A stretch of DNA of 64,000 nt from Arctopsyche grandis (Eukaryota > Arthropoda > Insecta > Trichoptera > Hydropsychidae), in NCBI RefSeq assembly GCF_051622035.1, contig NC_135361.1, forward strand, positions 6,267,001 to 6,331,000, in the 5' to 3' direction. The notes beneath the pieces are model-generated. The model did not search any database, was not told the DNA's origin, and saw nothing but the letters and a program-made list of their open reading frames with translations. Below are positions 18,276 to 46,789 of the stretch, in pieces. How positions within the stretch are numbered: position 1 is the first letter of the stretch; each line of letters begins with the position of its first letter. The position numbers and the translations under genes are program-made.

Positions 18276-18465
18276 GGTAATTGGACTATTCGTCACATTG
18301 TGGTGGTCACAAAGACAATTTTTGCCATGAAAATCGCGAATACAAAATATTTGGCACTCAAGTTCTCGTTAGTATGATAGTTATCGTTCGTATGATAGAC
18401 TTTTCCGCTGCCAGATGTTCCGTTTTAGAGATTTTAGTGACTTTGTGACCAGTAATAACCGAACC
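18276..18465 (-). mobile_element. GGTTCGG-family MITE, short form
   Basis: Reverse copy of the roughly 204-bp unit seen at 30056, 32681 and 46586. Flanks gttaaacat and gttaaatat are a 9-bp duplication with one mismatch. Confidence 0.7.
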
Positions 18466-28436: not shown

Positions 28437-31400
28437 TTAACGTTTTGTAAGTATTATTTTCAATGGTTCTTCCGGTACTAATACCATTCGCATGATGTCT
28501 TCGGCGTTTTGATTCAACATTTGTAGATCGAAATTCTCAACCACCTGTAAAACGAATTCCAAATTATTAACAATAAAATTACATATATAATATGATATTG
28601 GTTCGAGTTGAATTTTTTTCAGAACCTTTTTGAGAACCTCCTTCATTTGAAGCATGGCTATTTTCCGACCGATGCAAGATCTGCCACCGATTGCGAACGG
28701 GATCGAAGCATGAGGTGTCATCACCTTTTCTGAATCGGGTTCGTCGTTTTTGTACCACCGTCTCGGATCAAATTTCAACGGTTCGGTGAAATGTTCGGGA
28801 TTCCTGCCCGCCGAGTAAATCGACAGTATTATTGCTTTCTACAATCATTTCAAAGCATGAATTTGAATTAGTGTCACAGTCGACAGGAGAGGATGTTTGT
28901 AAATAGAAACAGTGGTGTCATAATTTATCGTTTTATTTACAATAGAATCACAATGAATTTCTCTTCAATATGTTGGGTACTCTATCGACGATCTTCGTTT
29001 TTATAATTTGGTACGGTTCTTTGAGTTCGGTTGGCGTGAGCGGTATTCTCAAGAATCGCCTTGCTTTCGGCGATAGGAGTAAAATGTTTTGAAACAAGCC
29101 GAAGCTGCTAGATGTGACCCAATATAGGCATAGTGAGGACGGAACCGATGCTGCAATCGGCACCATTATTATGGAGATTCCTCTGAATATGTTCATCGTG
29201 TATTTCTGCACGCGAGACGGAATGCCACTCCTAGACATAGCTTGCAATTCTATTATGGCAAGGTTCAAAACGCCGAATGTGATCGGCAGTATGAATGTGT
29301 GATCGGGCATCGTCAGGTCTGATATCCAGCCGAATCCTCCCGTCAGGAATTGTTCGTATGTGACTAGAGCGGTCGTAGAATGCTCGGGAAGCATGTAAGC
29401 TAGGTTTCTGATAGAGAACGACATGGAGATCCACAAAGGTATTTGAACTAGAATGAGGAGTGTTCCTTTGAAAGGGTGACAATTCTCTCGGATGACCAGT
29501 TTTTGCCATTGTTTCTTCATCGACTTTTTGAACAGGATGCTACATTGCTTGTCCGTCAAGTCGAAGCTTTTCTTGGCTAGGGCCGTCTCTTGACCCAGGT
29601 CTTTGGCGATTTTGTTCATTTCGGGGCCTATGTTCTCGAGCTTGGCGAAGATGTAGTTCTGGTGGGCTGCTAAGGGTAAGGTTATGGTGGCTCTGGCCAA
29701 GACCGTGGCCGTGATGATCGTGGCCCACCATGGCAGTCCTGTGAATTCGTGCAATTGCTCGAACCCACTCTGGCAAGATTTGACTATGTAGGTATCCGAC
29801 ACCGTGTTGTAGAATGGAGATTGTATGAACGCATCTCGAATTGCCGAATGGGATGATGATGATGAGCAGGCTGCTGGAGCTGAATGAAGAATGAGACTAC
29901 GACTTCGACTGTAGAGGCTCGCATAAGCCTTAATTCGCCACATATTGCTTTTGTTTATTCCGCCACTTAACCTACAAATATCACCGGCAGTGACATAACA
30001 TTGACGTTTGACAACTCGCTGCTAAATTGCTTGGCCGAAACACTATAATGTTTAGGGTTCGGTGATTATTGGTCACAAATTACTCGTCACAAAGTCACTA
30101 AAATCTCTATAACGGAACATCTGGCAGCCGAAAAGTCCATCATACTAACGATAACTATCATAGTAACGAGAACTTGAGTGCCAAATATTGTGTATTCGCG
30201 ATTTTCATGGCAAAAATTGTCTTTGTGACCACCCCAATGTGACGAATAGTCCAATTACCAATGTTTAGTCCTCGCGATAAAATAATGGTTCGGTGATTAT
30301 TGGTCACAAAGCGCTCGCCCAAAAGTCGCTAAAACCTGTATAACGGAACATCTGGTAGCCGAAAAGTCCATCACGCTAACAATAACTATCATACTAAGGA
30401 GAACTCGAGTGCCAAATATTCCGTATTCGCGATTTTCATGGCAACAATTGTCTTTTTGGCGATCTCAATGTGCGTAATAGTCCTGTAGGAATATAGCACA
30501 ACTTGTGCTATTCCAAATCAAAAACAGTGATCTCATATATTTCACAAGGGTCTACCTCACGGGACCGAAACTGAAAGGCCGAAAACGTACATATCGGAAG
30601 GCAAAGATCTCAAGTCGAAAGATAAAAAAAGGGTGCATGGTAAACAGTACTATGTATATATAATATACATATATGAGTGGCATGCGGTGAAATTATCTCT
30701 CTTTTTGTCATACAGCCTTGTTTAATGTGCGCGCGCAGACTCGGGAGGAAAAGCCTGTTCCTGTTGTATCCTGCTCGCGCAAATTAAGGGAGAGAGAGCT
30801 TTACCGCACGCCACTGATATATATACTAACCGTTTTTCATATGTATGCACGGTAAACAAACATTTTCGACTTTTTAACATTCGGTGCGGTGACGGTCACC
30901 CATTTCACAATATTACACAAGTCTTACGATGGCTTCATCATCGCTCCTGTACAAACATGCAGAACTCGAGGGCAACGTCCCCTTTGACTATTCCAGAAGA
31001 AAGAGTTCATTGCTCGATCGTAAAACGAACGAAATGTCATCATGCAACTGCAACACGTGTGTTGAAGACAAAGACGTTTGTACGTGGCACATGTGTAAGG
31101 ATACATTGTATCTGCAGTGACCGCATTCTTAAACGAACGACGTCCTGGCGTTGATGCCATAGCTATAAAACAAACGATGCCCAGAGCTGAGGTTAACATA
31201 CGGATAAAACACGTGTCCTGAAAACAGGTCAACACACGGATAAAACACGTCCCGAAAATAGGTCAATATACGGATAAAGCACGTGTCCTGAAGACAAAGA
31301 CATCTGCACACGATACGCCTAGAACTTCCGTATATAAACCAACGCACCAGCTCCAGACGCCAGAGTGAACCTCTGAAGTTCAACCAGACCACTTCTCCGA

Positions 31401-34400
31401 AGCTCAACTTCTTCGTACATAAAATTACCATTGTAGCAACTGAACATAAATAAACCATAGGCCGTGAATCGGTCGAAACCTATCACCCGCCCTATAATCC
31501 AATTGCCGTAATATTTAACCCTCGCGATAAAATAATACTTGTAACACTACGTCAGTAATGGCAAATATTTTTGAGAAGTGGGTCAAATTTCGTTAATTAT
31601 TTGTTTTAAAACTAGCCCGTGGGTCACTAAGTCAGGGAAGTCATTATAAAGGGGGGGGGGGTATGTATTTTTTTTATTTTACTATACTTTTACAAGTGAA
31701 GAGCAAAAAAATGAAGGTCAACGTCAAAAATATATATTAAGACCTCTATGCATTTATGTCGATTGACTTTTATTACAACTGGCATTACATTGAAAAATGT
31801 TTTTAAACCTTGCTTCGCACATAGAATTTATAACATTAAATCAAAAGTAAATATTGCGACTTACCCCTGCTGGAATATTGTAGCCTGCCAATTCACAATC
31901 GTTGGGTAGAATTCTCGCAACAAAAGCAGCAGCAGGATATAATCTCATAGTTTCTTTTATTATTCCCTTTGAGAAATTCTGTTCTTCTTCTTTGTTGTCC
32001 AAAAGAGATCGATATTTATTTAATACTTGGGGATTTTTACACAGTAAGTACAGCATCCATTGCGTTGTCACAGCGGTCTACATAAAACGGACATATTATC
32101 AGTTAAAATTTCACCATATCAACGGTACCTATCTATAAAATTACTATCAGCTATTTTAACCGTGTCTCCAGCAGCTATCACAAAATCCAGAGCAATTCTT
32201 GTCATTTCAATTTCACTTAAGCCATTTTCCTTTAATTTTGACACCAATCCGTCTCCCAAATTGTCCGTCTTATATATGCAGTCCATAATTTCTTGGCCTT
32301 AAATAAAATATTCATATTTGAATCGTCATATGCATGTACGTATGTATGTATTAATATGAGTTTAGCCTGGTCTATAATAATTAACCTATTGATAAAGTTC
32401 CGTCAGCAGCATCAACAAATCCTTTCCAAGCAGGAAATTTGTATTTGACGTAGTACTTAGCAGGCAGTAGAGTGATGAGTGCGGAATATGATAATATGTT
32501 GTAAACCTTTTCTGCAAAACGTTGTACCAGTTCGTTGTAGCTATCAGTCGATGCCACATAATTGGATCCCATCATTACTGATAGCATCGCTGAAAAATAA
32601 AACAATCATATATACGTACATATAAAATATCGCTATCCTGTCCGTGTGTTTATCTGCGAAAACGCTCGCCGTACTATAATAGTTCGGTGATTACTGGTCA
32701 CAAATTACTCGTCACAAAGTCACTAAAATCTCTATAACGGAACATTTGGCAGCCGAAAAGTCCATCATACTAACGATAACTATCATAGTAACAAGAACTT
32801 GAGTACCAAATATTGTGTATTCGCGATTTTCATGGCAAAAATTGTCTTTGTGACCACCCCAATGTGACGAATAGTCCAATTACCACTATAATAGTCGCTT
32901 TGATTTGACATACATATGTACGTCACAGCTTAACCACTGCCAACAAAATGTACGAATATGATATCGAAAGAAAAAACTTATATATATAAATATATACTAT
33001 CTGAACCCGGCATGCGTTGCAACGCCACAATAACGCATGCAATTCCCGTTCTCGTTCCCATTTGTCGGAAAAATGCAGGCATCGAACACGTTGGTCGCGA
33101 CACGAAAACATTTGAAATGATAGCGTTGCGATGACACCCATTCCCGTTTTCTTTTCACAGTAATCTTCCCGGACATGCATACAACAAATCCTGAAAGTTC
33201 CATCGTAATCGGTTCTGTGGTTTAGGAGCTTATTCGAGACACACACACAGACATTCATTTTTATATATGTATATATATAGATATACTGTTTGCTACCAAT
33301 GTTTCCTCTAGCCAAGTCTTTGAGTATTTAGTGCCATCTATTGAAAATTTATTTAATCAATTAATTTTTCTACTTGTGTTTTATATTGTTTATATGTATG
33401 TAGGTAGGTGGTAGTTTTTACCATTTTTTCATACTAAACTATTAAATTAAATATATTTAAAAGCTATTTGAAAAAAATTCGACCCCGTGCGGATCGAAGA
33501 CAGGACCGACCTTTCTTTTAATTTTTTTTTTATTTAATAACATAATATAGCAACACCCATGCAATGATATTTTATCGGGTAAAACACTAGTCAGAAATAA
33601 AACAAAACCAATTATCCAGTTCCCATATTGCAACCTGTGGTTGATATTTAGGAACTGGTTATGGAAAATATCGTAAGCATCGTGTGTGTGGACGACGCCA
33701 TTGACTCTTTTGAATGAAAATATTGAATATGACATACTTTCAATAGACATTGTGTACAATTCATCAGGTAGTTTCGGCTGGTATGGACCTGATTCGCATT
33801 TCGTCTTCCACTGCTCAGTGAATTTGGTGGCTGCTCCTGATATGGGAACTTTCAGCCACTCTTCAGTATCAGGTCTAAGAATTAGCTTATTCATGATTCT
33901 TCTGTAATGTAACCATTCTTCATCGTCCATGAAGAATAGACCTCTTTTGTAGTTGTACATTTCATTGTAGATGATCCAACTCTCGGGAACGAAATGCTTT
34001 GGATATTTTCCTTCGAGTTTGGTCAGAACTAGTCTCATTGAGTCAGGATCCGACACGAAAATACCCTCCACAGGTCCGACATTATCCCGAAAGATAGGTC
34101 CCAGTTGTTTGTGTCGTTTGTCAATGTATTTATGCAACCTGAACAAAAAAAAATTCGGATGTGACAAAACAATGACTTAATCTATAATATAAGAAGGTCA
34201 GAAAACAAAATTCGATAATTAAACATTCACACATACCGATTATGAGAGCATTTTCGATACAAATTGAGCAGAAATGTAGGGAAACTTACACAAGACAAAA
34301 GTCGGATTTTGGTCGTAATATTTTTATTACTTAAAATCACTATAATTATTGTACTCATTTAATATCAAGAAAATAAAAATAATTTAAAAGGTCAAAATAA

Positions 34401-35436
34401 AATAATGAAATATTGTTTTAAAAAAAAGACTACTTCCGGTTTACGAATTCTGACCAAAACCTTATCAGCTCTAAGTTAGTATATAAAAATACAAATATAA
34501 ATTGTCACCTTGATACGCTCAGATATATGGGTATGAAAAGTACAGTGGCCACAACATTGACCTTTCTAAGAGGAAAAAATCCCACTTCCGGTTTATTAAA
34601 TTTAGTGATTTTTTTGTTGTTTTCATCACATTGATACAAGAATTATACTTGAATTTTTTCGTGAAGACTACACATATTTAAGAGGTTATATTAGTGGAAG
34701 AAAAATCGAACAAGAGTAAACTGCCCCTTCCGGTTGATGGATGCCTACCAAATTTTATACATAACTTGGTATTAAGCTCAAACTTCTAGATATGAAATTT
34801 CAGTTTAATAAATCAAAAGGTTTCTGAGAAAAATATAAAAAAAAACTCTATTATCAAGAGTAAAAGTACTATTTCCGGTTCAGGTAAAAATATTCAAAAA
34901 ATATTAGGGTGTAAAATTTATAATTTCTATTATATTTAAAATAAATTCAGTCTGATTCGGTTGGCGGTTTGGGAGATGATTGAATTCAAAAACTTAAAAA
35001 AAGATAAGGGGAGGTACCATTTCCGGTCAACTTAAAAAATTGAAAATAATTTACGTCGTATCGATAAGAATTTCAGTAACCGATACTAAGTTTCAGTTCA
35101 ATAGGACTAAATCCCCAAAATACACTGAAACAGACACACACACATTTTTTCTAGATCATAAAACGTGATCAGTGATCGATTCTGAGTTCGAATCAGTCAA
35201 AATCTCGAGTTCTAATTTTTGCATGATCACAAAACTTCATCTATTGTTACAACGTAAAATCTTTTATATGTATATAATGTATATATGTATATATATAATA
35301 AATACCTTGACGGGCCTGATGCAATCATAGACAAATGTGTACCAATAAATGGTAGTCCTTTTGCTCTGGGTAAGTCTTCGATCGTAAGCAAGGTCTTTGA
35401 GGACATGAATCTTTTGCAAACATGCTTTGTCCACAT
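28437..35436 (-). CDS. sad: Mitochondrial cytochrome P450, CYP315A1-like (shadow, ecdysteroid 2-hydroxylase)
   Basis: Exons 35436-35306, 34138-33738, 32589-32386, 32297-32161, 32077-31865, 28838-28626, 28544-28437; 468 aa, phases close. In insects CYP315A1 hydroxylates ecdysteroid precursors at C-2 in the mitochondrion, before the final 20-hydroxylation. A short basic N-terminus (KHVCKRFMSSK) precedes the proline-rich hinge. 'GLFFMDDEEWLHYRRIMN' is the C-helix. The I-helix reads DFVIAAGDTTA (about 283-293) with the AAGDTT variant I remember from Drosophila Shadow. ExxR is E333-R336 and the haem motif FAIGGRSCIG has Cys417. The first ATG was chosen by alignment with the paralogue's exon 1. Exon 2 was ended at A|GTATGT, because reading on runs into repeat sequence. 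Intron 5 contains COX18. CYP302A1 or CYP12 types are less likely alternatives. Confidence 0.85.
28948..29943 (-). CDS. COX18: Cytochrome c oxidase assembly protein COX18 (OXA1/YidC family)
   Basis: Single exon, 331 aa. COX18 is a mitochondrial inner-membrane insertase that helps export the C-terminal part of COX2. The N-terminus is rich in Ser/Arg and lacks acidic residues until about residue 37, like a mitochondrial presequence. The OXA1-type core follows: LPWWATIITATVLARATITLP, then ENIGPEMNKIA, 'NCHPFKGTLLILVQIPLWI', 'GGFGWISDLTMPD', 'ILPITFGVLNLAIIEL' and IPIAASVPSSLCLYW-like text, matching human COX18 in order. It ends LLLSPKARRFLRIP before a short tail. It lies wholly inside intron 5 of the CYP315A1-like gene, on the same strand. 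A poly(A) signal (minus-strand AATAAA, 28932-28937) is close behind the stop. It has no introns, so it may be an old retroposed copy that became the functional gene, or simply an intronless gene. Confidence 0.93.
   Translation of the reverse strand: MWRIKAYASLYSRSRSLILHSAPAACSSSSSHSAIRDAFIQSPFYNTVSDTYIVKSCQSGFEQLHEFTGLPWWATIITATVLARATITLPLAAHQNYIFAKLENIGPEMNKIAKDLGQETALAKKSFDLTDKQCSILFKKSMKKQWQKLVIRENCHPFKGTLLILVQIPLWISMSFSIRNLAYMLPEHSTTALVTYEQFLTGGFGWISDLTMPDHTFILPITFGVLNLAIIELQAMSRSGIPSRVQKYTMNIFRGISIIMVPIAASVPSSLCLYWVTSSSFGLFQNILLLSPKARRFLRIPLTPTELKEPYQIIKTKIVDRVPNILKRNSL
30056..30260 (+). mobile_element. GGTTCGG-family MITE, short form
   Basis: About 204 bp, GGTTCGGTGATTATTGGTCAC...GTCCAATTACC, flanked by a 9-bp duplication, AATGTTTAG. 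It differs from the copy at 46586 by only about two bases, so both are recent. Just upstream of COX18, within the P450 intron. Confidence 0.75.
30287..30487 (+). mobile_element. GGTTCGG-family MITE, diverged neighbour copy
   Basis: Same family and orientation as the preceding copy, only 26 bases away, but with many differences ('aaagcgctcgcccaaaagtc') and a truncated right end. Confidence 0.65.
30548..30880. mobile_element. Foldback MITE (GGGTCTAC family), partial
   Basis: Starts GGGTCTACCTCACGGGACCG as at 1223 and contains the 'gaggaaaagcctgttcctg' and 'ctgctcgcgcaaattaa' segments of the 17406 hairpin. The right end is diverged. Confidence 0.55.
30890..31560 (+). mobile_element. LTR-like promoter fossil
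   Basis: Four loosely tandem 'cacgtgtcctgaagacaaag'-type units (31050-31300) precede TATATAAACC (31333) and then AATAAACC (31449), the order of U3 enhancers, TATA and poly(A) signal in an LTR. I could not fix its ends or a target duplication. No internal region is seen. Confidence 0.4.
31561..31864. other. P450 intron 5, right part
   Basis: AT-rich with a G-run near 31652-31661. No coding frame or repeat was recognised. Confidence 0.5.
32681..32885 (+). mobile_element. GGTTCGG-family MITE, short form
   Basis: Near-identical to copies at 30056 and 46586. Flanked by ACTATAAT on each side, an 8-bp duplication that can be read as longer because of a shared base. Intron 2 of the CYP315A1-like gene. 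Confidence 0.75.
32990..33600. mobile_element. Unclassified interspersed repeat with RTE-like 3' tail
   Basis: 33000-33290 ('cccggcatgcgttgcaacg', 'ggttctgtggtttaggagc', 'acacacagacattcatttt') has the text typical of RTE-type LINE or dependent SINE tails in arthropods. 33320-33600 is the inverted counterpart of 10640-10910. Intron 2 of the CYP315A1-like gene. Class from memory, not proved. Confidence 0.4.
34165..35235 (-). repeat. 1.1-kb repeat J, inverted copy
   Basis: Reverse complement of 23345-24465. TTCCGG cores lie near 34436, 34587, 34730, 34873 and 35022, again 143-151 bases apart. It fills nearly all of intron 1 of the CYP315A1-like gene. Confidence 0.7.
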
Positions 35437-39228: not shown

Positions 39229-39739
39229 TGATTCCATTATTAAAAATTGTTTATTTCAAAAATATCAATTCTATAGATTTTTAATAGAGATTTTCAAAGG
39301 TTCATCAGGCACCAAAACCATTTTAAAAACATTTTCAACGTGTTTGTTTAATATTTGTATTTCGAAGTTCCGAGCAATCTGTGAAAAGATATGTTCACTT
39401 CAACTTAATAAATACATATATGTATAAAATAGTTACGTATAAATTTAAATATTTGAAGTAAATTTTAACCTGTCTGAGAACCTCTCTCATTTGAAGCGTT
39501 GCAATATTTTGACCGATGAAAGATCTTGCCCCGATTATAAAAGGCATTAAAGCATGAGGAGTCATCACCACCTCTGAATCTTTGTTGTTTTTGTACCACC
39601 GTTTTGGATCAAATTTCAACGGTTTCGTGAAATATTTAGGATTCCTACTCAAGGAGTACATATAGAGAGCATCACTGGTTTCTATAATACATTTAAATTT
39701 ATCAAGTGTGTGAAACACCAGAGTGTAAATTAAAATGAG

Positions 39740-40500
39740 TATAATCTTGATCTTGGAGATAGTAGTAGTCGGTAAACTATCCGAGCGCGCCAACGAGTAT
39801 CAACGGCCCTTATGTCTAGGTTTTGTCGATTATCAGAAAGCCTTCGACACAGCTAGTGACAATGCAGTATACATATATCACTCATATACAAACACAGGGA
39901 GTGCCGGAACCATATATGGGGTTGTTAGCTGCAATATACAAGAACGCCACAGCTTCGGTAAAACTTTTTTCAGATACAGATATTAAGGTGGCGTGCATTT
40001 CGAAGAATGAACGCAGTTTTTAAATCAAAAATGCCACTTTGCCTGAAGAAGTAGATCTTCGATCAATGTGTTTTGTCAGTGATGACGTATGAATGTGAAA
40101 CTTCGACATTGAACGCCAAGATGCTACACAAAGTCCAATGTACTCAAAGAAGTATGGAACGTTGTATGCTTGGCATAACAAAGAAAGAGAGGAAACGGAA
40201 TACGTGGGTGAAAAGTATGACGGAAATGGGTTGTGGATATAGTAGATGGAGTGAAAAGATTAAAATGGCAATAGGTGGGTCACGTGGTTAGAAGAATGGA
40301 CAAAATAAGTGCTAGAATGGTACCTGAGAGAATACAAAACGGTAAAAGAAAAACCGCAGGGAAGATGGGTGGACAACATTGGGAAAATGTGTGGGGTGAG
40401 ATGGTGTAGAATGAGTAGATACGAGTAGAAGCGTGTTGGAGAGGCCTTCATCCACCAGTGGATGGCGAATGGCTGTAAATGATGATGATGATGATGATGA
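39740..40500 (+). mobile_element. RTE-like LINE 3' fragment
   Basis: Reads 'ERANEYQRPLCLGFVDYQKA' then FDTA, the RT motif A region, followed after a gap by 'LNAKMLHKVQCTQRSMERCM' and a (GAT)n end, the usual RTE microsatellite tail. Frames are broken and the RT centre is missing. It is in an intron of the P450 relic. Confidence 0.7.
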
Positions 40501-41785
40501 ATCTTGATCAGTGGTTGTCAAAAAGAAAACACAAAACATTTCAAGAAAGCCATCGACCAGAAATTAACGTTTGGGGAACCACAAGAAACTTTATGGGGTC
40601 GAACTCAAATTTCTTGAATGTAAGCAAATTCGATTCAGTAATAGGATATATAATATAAATGTTCCAAATTGGATGTCAGGTCATTTGGTGTGAATTCAGT
40701 TGCTGCTAAAATTAAATGATAAGAAAGCAGTATCTTGATGTGAATAGCGATCGTTTTTGTCGCTGACAGAATATATAAAATGGTTCCCAAAAAAATGCAC
40801 TGAATTCCATCGAATAGTGGCGCCGTTTCGAGAAATCAAAGGCTTTCAGAAATCAAAGGTTTTCTAAGGCGCTAAAAAAGAACTTACGAATTAAGTAGCC
40901 TCCTAATTCACAATCATTTGGAAAAATTCTGCTAGCGAGCGCTGCAATAGGATACATTCTTAGCGTTTCTTTTACTATTCCTCTTGAAAATTTTTGCTCT
41001 TCCTCTTTGTCATCCAGAACTGATCGATATTCATCCAATACATGTGGATTTTTACACAGCAAATACAGCATCCATTGCTTAGTTACAGAAGTCTGCAACT
41101 AAAATAGAAAATGATTAAATTTCTACGGCCAAAATCATTATCATATAACACAAGTAATTGGTGACAAATAAAACCGTGTCTCCAGCAGCTATCACCAAAT
41201 CAACACAGATTCTCGATATTTCCATTTCGTTCAAACCTTCTTTTTTTAATTTCCTCACGAACCCCATCCCCCAAATCTTCTGACTTATATATGATATCCA
41301 AGAGAGATTTCCCTTAAACAAAACAACCAGATATTAATAAAATGTTGTGTAAATAAATCGATCATTTATTATTTTTTCTTACCTATACGATAGAGACCCA
41401 TCGAGAGCATCGACAAATTTCCTCCAAACAGGGAAATTGAACTGAGCATAATATTTGGCAGGTAACACATTCATGTCTAAAGTATATTCAGTTATTTTAT
41501 GCACCTTTTCAAAAAATCGAACCAATATTTCGTCGTAGCGACCCGCCAATGATGTATACGCAGATTCCAACAATATTGATATCATTGCTTAAACAAAGTA
41601 TCTAATATATAATTTCGAAAGAGACTTTGTATGTATGTTTGTTTGGGTCGTAGATTCCTTGACGTTCAATGTAATAAAAAATCAAATAAACTTTACTATT
41701 AGATTGGCCATGCTTACAAATATCGACCGAAGCCGGGTAAAAACACTAGCAATAAATAAAATAAGCCTACTGAGCTGAATGATTA

Positions 41786-42125
41786 CACTGAGCAACAAAA
41801 AAAAATTACCAGAGCGGAGACTAACCAATATTTACTAAGTTTGACTCACTGAATTCGAATATGATAATGATTTTTGTTGGTTGGTGATCATTTACGGGAT
41901 ATGATCGTTTAAAAAAATGCGCGATTTTTACACTTTTTTGGCTTTTGCGGTCTTTAACTCAAAATCTAGTATTGTTGTGCTCAAAGTGAGTATTGGAATC
42001 AATAGTCAGATGTTTTTTCTATTGATTGTGATTTTTTATTGTTTAAAAAACTTATAATTAATTGTCTAGCGAATTTTAAAAGTCAAAAATATATTTTTTT
42101 TCACGGATTTTTTCTCCGTGCTATT
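41786..42125. mobile_element. CACTG-ended MITE (family H), partial
   Basis: Starts CACTGAGCAACA and shares 'accagagcggagactaacca' and 'tactaagtttgactcactga'-type text with 20811. The right end is not clear. It occupies the place where exon 2 of the P450 relic should be. Confidence 0.5.
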
Positions 42126-42563
42126 TTGCGTTTATTTGCCCACTTTTTTATTTCACCACGTTTATAGGGATTGGTTTTCTATCTCAATATTTTTTTTTAT
42201 CTAAACGTACTAACTCGAGTGGTTTTTGCGTTAGAAAGACTTTCGTTCAGTTCCCGTATGCGTATAACAGAAGCGTTGGTGCAAGCGAGATGGCAAGTCC
42301 TATATCCGAGATGGACACCTATAAGTGGAGGTACCATTTCCGGTCAACTTAAAAATTTGTAAGTAAGTATTTATTACAATAAATCAGTAACTGAATTCGA
42401 TTGATGTTGAAAATCTATAGTATTACCTGTCCCCTGCCCTTTTAACTGATAACATCGTACCAATTAACGGAAGTCCTCTTGCTTTGGGTATGTCTTTGAA
42501 AGAGAGTAGTGTCCTGCCAGTGTTGGAACACATGCATCTTTTGAAAACATGTTTTATTAGCAT

Positions 42564-46585: not shown

Positions 46586-46789
46586 GGTTCGGTGATTACT
46601 GGTCACAAATTACTCGTCACAAAGTCACTAAAATCTCTATAACGGAACATCTGGCAGCCGAAAAGTCCATCATACTAACGATAACTATCATAGTAACGAG
46701 AACTTGAGTGCCAAATATTGTGTATTCGCGATTTTCATGGCAAAAATTGTCTTTGTGACCACCCCAATGTGTCGAATAGTCCAATTACC
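46586..46789 (+). mobile_element. GGTTCGG-family MITE, short form
   Basis: GGTTCGG...ATTACC with an 8-bp duplication GTTTATGC on each side. It differs from the 30056 copy at about two positions. Confidence 0.75.

Follow-up and report, generated by a model that had tools for sequence, protein, structure and literature searches.

A COX18 gene nested on the same strand within intron 5 of the CYP315A1 (shadow) gene of Arctopsyche grandis

The genome of Arctopsyche grandis (Hydropsychidae) contains a clean same-strand intronic nest: the coding sequence of COX18 lies wholly within one intron, the fifth, of the cytochrome P450 gene CYP315A1 (shadow), and both genes are read from the same strand. The nest was analysed in a stretch of 64 kb (contig C7:6267001-6331000, hereafter the window), and the genome searched comprises 475.7 Mb in 189 contigs; searches of it turned up no other COX18 and no second intact CYP315A1, so that these two genes are tied to each other. 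A preliminary description had already placed an intact, intronless COX18 at 28948-29943 in intron 5 of a CYP315A1-like gene, both on the minus strand. The coordinates, the domain and the relatives of the guest agree with this placement, and both gene identities were borne out by PF02096, PF00067, the named relatives and the annotated protein P0077. COX18 is likely to be functional, to carry a promoter and a poly(A) site of its own and to be a stable guest that its host tolerates, and the arrangement is likely to be mainly neutral; the separate promoter, the splicing outcome and the neutrality are what we infer from the locus. The features of the nest are as follows (positions are those of the window).

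28437..35436, minus strand: coding span of CYP315A1 (shadow), seven exons, 468 aa (GT-AG model, PF00067, identity to P0077)
35436-35306, 34138-33738, 32589-32386 and 32297-32161, minus strand: CYP315A1 exons 1-4
32077-31865, 28838-28626 and 28544-28437, minus strand: CYP315A1 exons 5-7
28839..31864, minus strand: host intron 5, 3,026 bp, phase 0, donor GTAAGT
28948..29943, minus strand: COX18 coding sequence, stop included, one exon, 331 aa plus stop
28932..28937, minus strand: AATAAA hexamer past the COX18 stop; distance from the host donor 2,927 nt, to the acceptor downstream 98 nt
28867..28871, minus strand: CTAAT, candidate host branch point (putative function), ~30 nt before exon 6

All six introns of the host gene are bounded by GT..AG, and the spliced frame encodes 468 aa without a stop. 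P0077, which bears the annotation 'cytochrome P450 315a1, mitochondrial-like [Arctopsyche grandis]', matches this product at 100% identity over 100% of its length, and the annotated protein covers the junction of exons 5 and 6. A single P450 domain was found by Pfam (PF00067, 232 bits, residues 26-464 of 468), and the translation carries FAIGGRSCIG, which we take to be the heme-cysteine motif. Solved structures gave 406 matches; of the 60 listed, the top 11 are mitochondrial P450s, namely CYP11A1 (the enzyme of cholesterol side-chain cleavage), vitamin D 24-hydroxylase, CYP11B2 and CYP11B1, which places the host product in the mitochondrial P450 clan. Identity to other proteins, self left out, is 36-43% among the 120 of 318 matches listed; many of these relatives, from several insect orders, are named 315a1 or shadow, and the remainder are named cholesterol side-chain cleavage enzyme, plain P450 or hypothetical, or are nameless. 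Judged by these comparisons, the closest relatives of the host are the CYP315A1 proteins of other insects. The product is presumably an ecdysteroid 2-hydroxylase, an enzyme of moulting-hormone synthesis, and its expression is assumed, as in other insects, to be restricted to steroid glands. When linkage of COX18 to the CYP exons was sought in relatives, two matches were obtained among four candidates, a CYP4C1-like protein and, from a close relative, a fragment of exon 5, which are uninformative about linkage. P0197, from a closely related genome (contig of 1,085 bp), comprises exon 5 and the start of intron 5; its 71 aa are 94% identical to the host, and its exon-intron edge is the same as that of CYP315A1 exon 5 and intron 5.

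The guest carries the Oxa1/YidC/Cox18 insertase domain (PF02096, 72.7 bits; cut-off 35). Insect COX18 proteins rank among its best named matches, 14 of its 76 protein matches are arthropod proteins named COX18, and OXA1 appears in none of the 76 names in their visible (cut) text. In a tree of 23 proteins, the guest groups with the unnamed database proteins P0002-P0004 (support 100/99), of which P0002 is 85% identical over the full length. A solved OXA1L structure scores 76.8 bits against COX18 vs. 273.9 and 260.8 bits against the two other intact PF02096 genes of the genome, and COX18 shares 31% and 26% identity with these two OXA1L genes. Domain, named relatives and place in the tree identify the guest as COX18 rather than OXA1L. 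The possibility that it is a chance frame or a pseudogene was rejected, as the frame is intact and conserved; chance is ruled out by full-length matches to named families. The predicted activity is the insertion of the Cox2 tail in mitochondria, and COX18 is presumably, as in other insects, a housekeeping gene that is expected to be active in all respiring cells.

Genome-wide, PF02096 has four matches: the nested COX18, two OXA1L genes (on C13 and C7), which are intact single frames, and a degraded fragment on C10, which was not matched by tblastn with COX18. The P450 protein has at least 77 matches, with 91 of 120 candidates scored; the ten best are all at the nest locus and represent the CYP315A1 gene and a tandem pseudogene, and among the same scored candidates, matches away from the locus reach at most 54.5 bits.

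The junction 31865|28838, as given in the preliminary description, proved to be correctly placed: it is in phase 0, conforms to GT-AG and keeps the frame open. Intron 5 alone among the six host introns has the donor GTAAGT. It also contains four AATAAA hexamers (31774, 31678, 29959 and 28937), compared with 1.6 predicted by base composition, among them the signal of COX18 itself and one in the COX18 5' flank; introns 1 and 2 each contain two, with 1.5 and 1.3 expected, respectively. From the AATAAA at 28937, the COX18 3' end would be expected nearer 28920-28900 than 28930. The CTAAT that follows was singled out as a candidate branch point by its fit to the branch-point consensus. The sequence TTTGTAG, which resembles an acceptor, has its last base at 29972, 28 nt ahead of the ATG of COX18. 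In D. melanogaster, the median range of protection by U1 is ~500 nt (excerpt of PMC5499120), and because the COX18 poly(A) signal is 2,927 nt away, the host donor is not expected to mask it. It follows that either host splicing must be the faster process or the two genes must be used in different cells. Interference is thus possible, as there are four AATAAA in intron 5 and the COX18 signal lies outside the U1 range. Rfam and tRNA scans of the 64-kb window gave no match.

The space upstream of COX18 is limited by a repeat, which is present in several copies.

30057..30260, minus strand: repeat of ~205 bp, separated from the downstream ATG of COX18 by ~114 bp; identity to the copy at 32682-32885, 98%
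30288..30491, minus strand: diverged copy (84%) of the repeat
32682..32885, minus strand: further copy, within intron 2 of the host

More copies lie near 18276 and 46749, and 9-bp direct repeats were seen by eye at the ends of the copy at 30057..30260. The repeat looks young and transposon-like, and its insertion upstream of COX18 looks recent. This insertion leaves a short space for the COX18 promoter, unless the promoter extends into the repeat.

It is reasonable to envisage the working of the nest in the following way. COX18, as a single exon, would have come to sit inside an existing CYP315A1 intron. Its transcription would most likely run from a short promoter of its own, immediately upstream, to a poly(A) site of its own, shortly ahead of the host acceptor, and the host would be spliced across the whole 3-kb intron 5. 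With a GTAAGT donor and an acceptor 98 nt from the COX18 poly(A) signal, splicing would probably win often enough, and interference might be at most modest, where both genes are active. The complete frame across the junction, the identity to P0077 and the COX18 AATAAA followed by CTAAT all support this reading, as do the intactness and conservation of COX18, the copies found of the two genes, the shared exon-intron edge in P0197 and the frequency of intronic genes in D. melanogaster.

Three other explanations were weighed against that of a tolerated guest. It is hardly credible that exons 1-5 and exons 6-7 belong to different transcripts, or that the locus is misassembled, so that there is no true nest; nothing was found in favour of this, and the junction is matched in phase, the P450 domain extends over residues 26-464 of 468, the annotated protein is identical, the locus lies on a contig of 33.7 Mb and, the pseudogene aside, exons 6-7 find matches of no more than 54.5 bits elsewhere in the genome among the candidates scored. 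COX18 might also depend on the promoter of its host, its RNA being either a retained-intron transcript or one with an alternative last exon, and would then not be a separate gene at all. The acceptor-like TTTGTAG just before the COX18 ATG fits such a scheme; however, by inspection, joining exon 5 at this site puts the ATG out of the P450 frame, and a gene presumably needed in all respiring cells would depend on a host that is presumably tissue-restricted, which makes this origin of the transcript very unlikely.

More weight may be given to the third explanation, in which COX18 transcription or its poly(A) signal would shorten host transcripts and thereby set the output of the ecdysteroid enzyme, in the manner of the H13/Mcts2 interference. 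The two genes are on the same strand, 2,927 nt separate the donor from the poly(A) signal, compared with a U1 median of ~500 nt (excerpt of PMC5499120), H13/Mcts2 of the mouse offers a tested sense-sense precedent (excerpt of PMC13309782), and human hosts are reported to give aberrant transcripts upstream of the genes nested in them (excerpt of PMC3192792). However, H13 ends at an intronic site upstream of Mcts2 and not at the poly(A) site of the guest, and such interference is on the whole judged unlikely in the present nest; regulation would also predict that the arrangement is conserved. Regulation by premature polyadenylation is plausible by analogy, and the geometry of intron 5 leaves room for it, although its probability is low to moderate and the present evidence does not favour it over neutral co-existence. 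A stronger form, in which the only COX18 would be a built-in attenuator of the only CYP315A1, with COX18 promoter activity or the poly(A) site competing with intron 5 splicing, is a long shot; if true, it would couple moulting-hormone synthesis to the demand for mitochondrial cytochrome oxidase assembly.

Same-strand nests are a kind already known, and the COX18/CYP315A1 pair is an added example. In this pair, two genes of mitochondrial function, one presumably confined to steroid glands and the other presumably ubiquitous, share one transcribed stretch, and a poly(A) signal that lies 98 nt before an acceptor and far from the donor provides a natural test of splicing versus 3'-end cleavage at an insect locus. 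The arrangement is otherwise ordinary. Intronic genes make up ~6% of D. melanogaster genes (excerpt of PMC3786989), and FlyBase does not regard an intronic gene on its host's strand as an exception (excerpt of PMC4528330). Among simple pairs, those that share a strand are the smaller group, 76 of 296 for human and 55 of 248 for mouse, and mammalian nested pairs are biased to opposite strands, which the author reads as purging of same-strand nests (both from an excerpt of PMC8467205). This mammalian bias speaks against the reading of COX18 as a tolerated guest. In lying wholly in one intron on the same strand, COX18 is like the same-strand nested protein-coding genes of Drosophila, human and mouse, and it is a single-exon gene, like ~41% of human nested genes (excerpt of PMC3192792). 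The internal gene is usually the more tissue-specific one in flies and mammals, and the external gene is broader in flies and human (excerpt of PMC8467205), whereas the roles expected of COX18 and CYP315A1 from their named functions are reversed.

Two known pairs may be compared more closely. H13/Mcts2 of the mouse is likewise a sense-sense nest of an unrelated guest in a multi-exon host; Mcts2 is a retrotransposed copy of Mcts1, and its promoter is an imprinted CpG island (excerpt of PMC13309782). Unlike Mcts2, COX18 has no second copy among the PF02096 matches of the genome, and truncation of host transcripts is so far a hypothesis for CYP315A1. The insect pair tim2/2mit resembles COX18/CYP315A1 in combining an unrelated host with an intronic guest but is arranged on opposite strands; it has been kept in the honey bee and Drosophila and not in four Lepidoptera (excerpt of PMC3786989). 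No prior report of the COX18/CYP315A1 nest was found in the open-licence literature, in which CYP315A1 papers were judged by title and the start of the abstract.

As regards the origin of the nest, COX18 is intronless, with a single frame of 331 codons. No intron-bearing parent is present among the four PF02096 matches of the genome, although a parent may have been lost. Its flanks of 132 bp and 109 bp have no direct repeats of 7-14 bp in common, which may have decayed, and contain no A-tract. A recent retrocopy with a surviving parent was thus rejected, given that the genome matches include no parent and that flanking duplications were not found; COX18 may still have arrived by retroposition. 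The conserved heme region is encoded by exons 6-7, which the tandem pseudogene also has, and therefore the host did not grow around a neighbour. COX18 most likely entered a host intron that already existed.

The pseudogene, which the preliminary description had missed, lies just upstream of the host.

39283..42563, minus strand: tandem pseudogene of CYP315A1 with recognisable exons 1 and 3-7

No match to exon 2 is left in this copy, a length change in exon 4 breaks the frame, and phenylalanine stands in place of the heme cysteine. Over 234 codons of exons 3, 5, 6 and 7, its pooled distances from CYP315A1 are Ka 0.27 and Ks 0.95, and it is therefore an old duplicate, which was probably under constraint during a large part of its history. 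No significant match to COX18 was found by tblastn in intron 5 of the pseudogene; the sole match there, a serine-rich stretch of 22 residues (E 3.6), was taken as chance. The absence of COX18 fits nesting after the duplication, but its loss from a decaying copy is as likely as a later insertion, and dating of the nest from the pseudogene was thus rejected. By blastn (E 0.01), intron 5 does not align between the two copies; the alignments are confined to short stretches of introns 1 and 2 and of the 5' flank. By eye, repeat-like DNA takes over at the end of pseudogene exon 5.

Upstream of the intact CYP315A1, on the same strand, lies an old tandem copy of the gene that has become a pseudogene: another residue stands in place of the heme cysteine, the reading frame of exon 4 is disrupted, and exon 2 has no match within the copy. 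Two short blocks are common to the 5' flanks of both copies, although their coding exons have diverged to a Ks of ~0.95.

42563-39283, minus strand: tandem CYP315A1 pseudogene
35503-35472 (intact) vs. 42633-42602 (pseudogene): 5'-flank block 1, 84% identical
35611-35567 (intact) vs. 42738-42694 (pseudogene): 5'-flank block 2, 76% identical

The two blocks may act as elements of a Halloween gene promoter.

A transposon-like repeat of ~205 bp occurs at 30057-30260, at 32682-32885, near 46749 and near 18276; by eye, it is bounded by direct repeats of 8-10 bp. The 32682-32885 copy sits in intron 2 of CYP315A1, and the 30057-30260 copy in intron 5. Four exact copies of TTGCGTAGGGGTGGGTGGAGGATCC also occur in the window, at 327, 1552 and 9771 (plus strand) and 11290 (minus strand), and are probably the ends of another mobile element family.

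Elsewhere in the genome, PF02096 matches include a degraded fragment and two differing OXA1L proteins, both encoded in this one genome.

C10:26909955-26910260: L004, degraded fragment with three stops, scoring below the family cut-off
C13:23.93 Mb: L001, OXA1L, single open frame, 381 codons stop to stop
C7:29.25 Mb: L002, OXA1L, single open frame, 373 codons stop to stop
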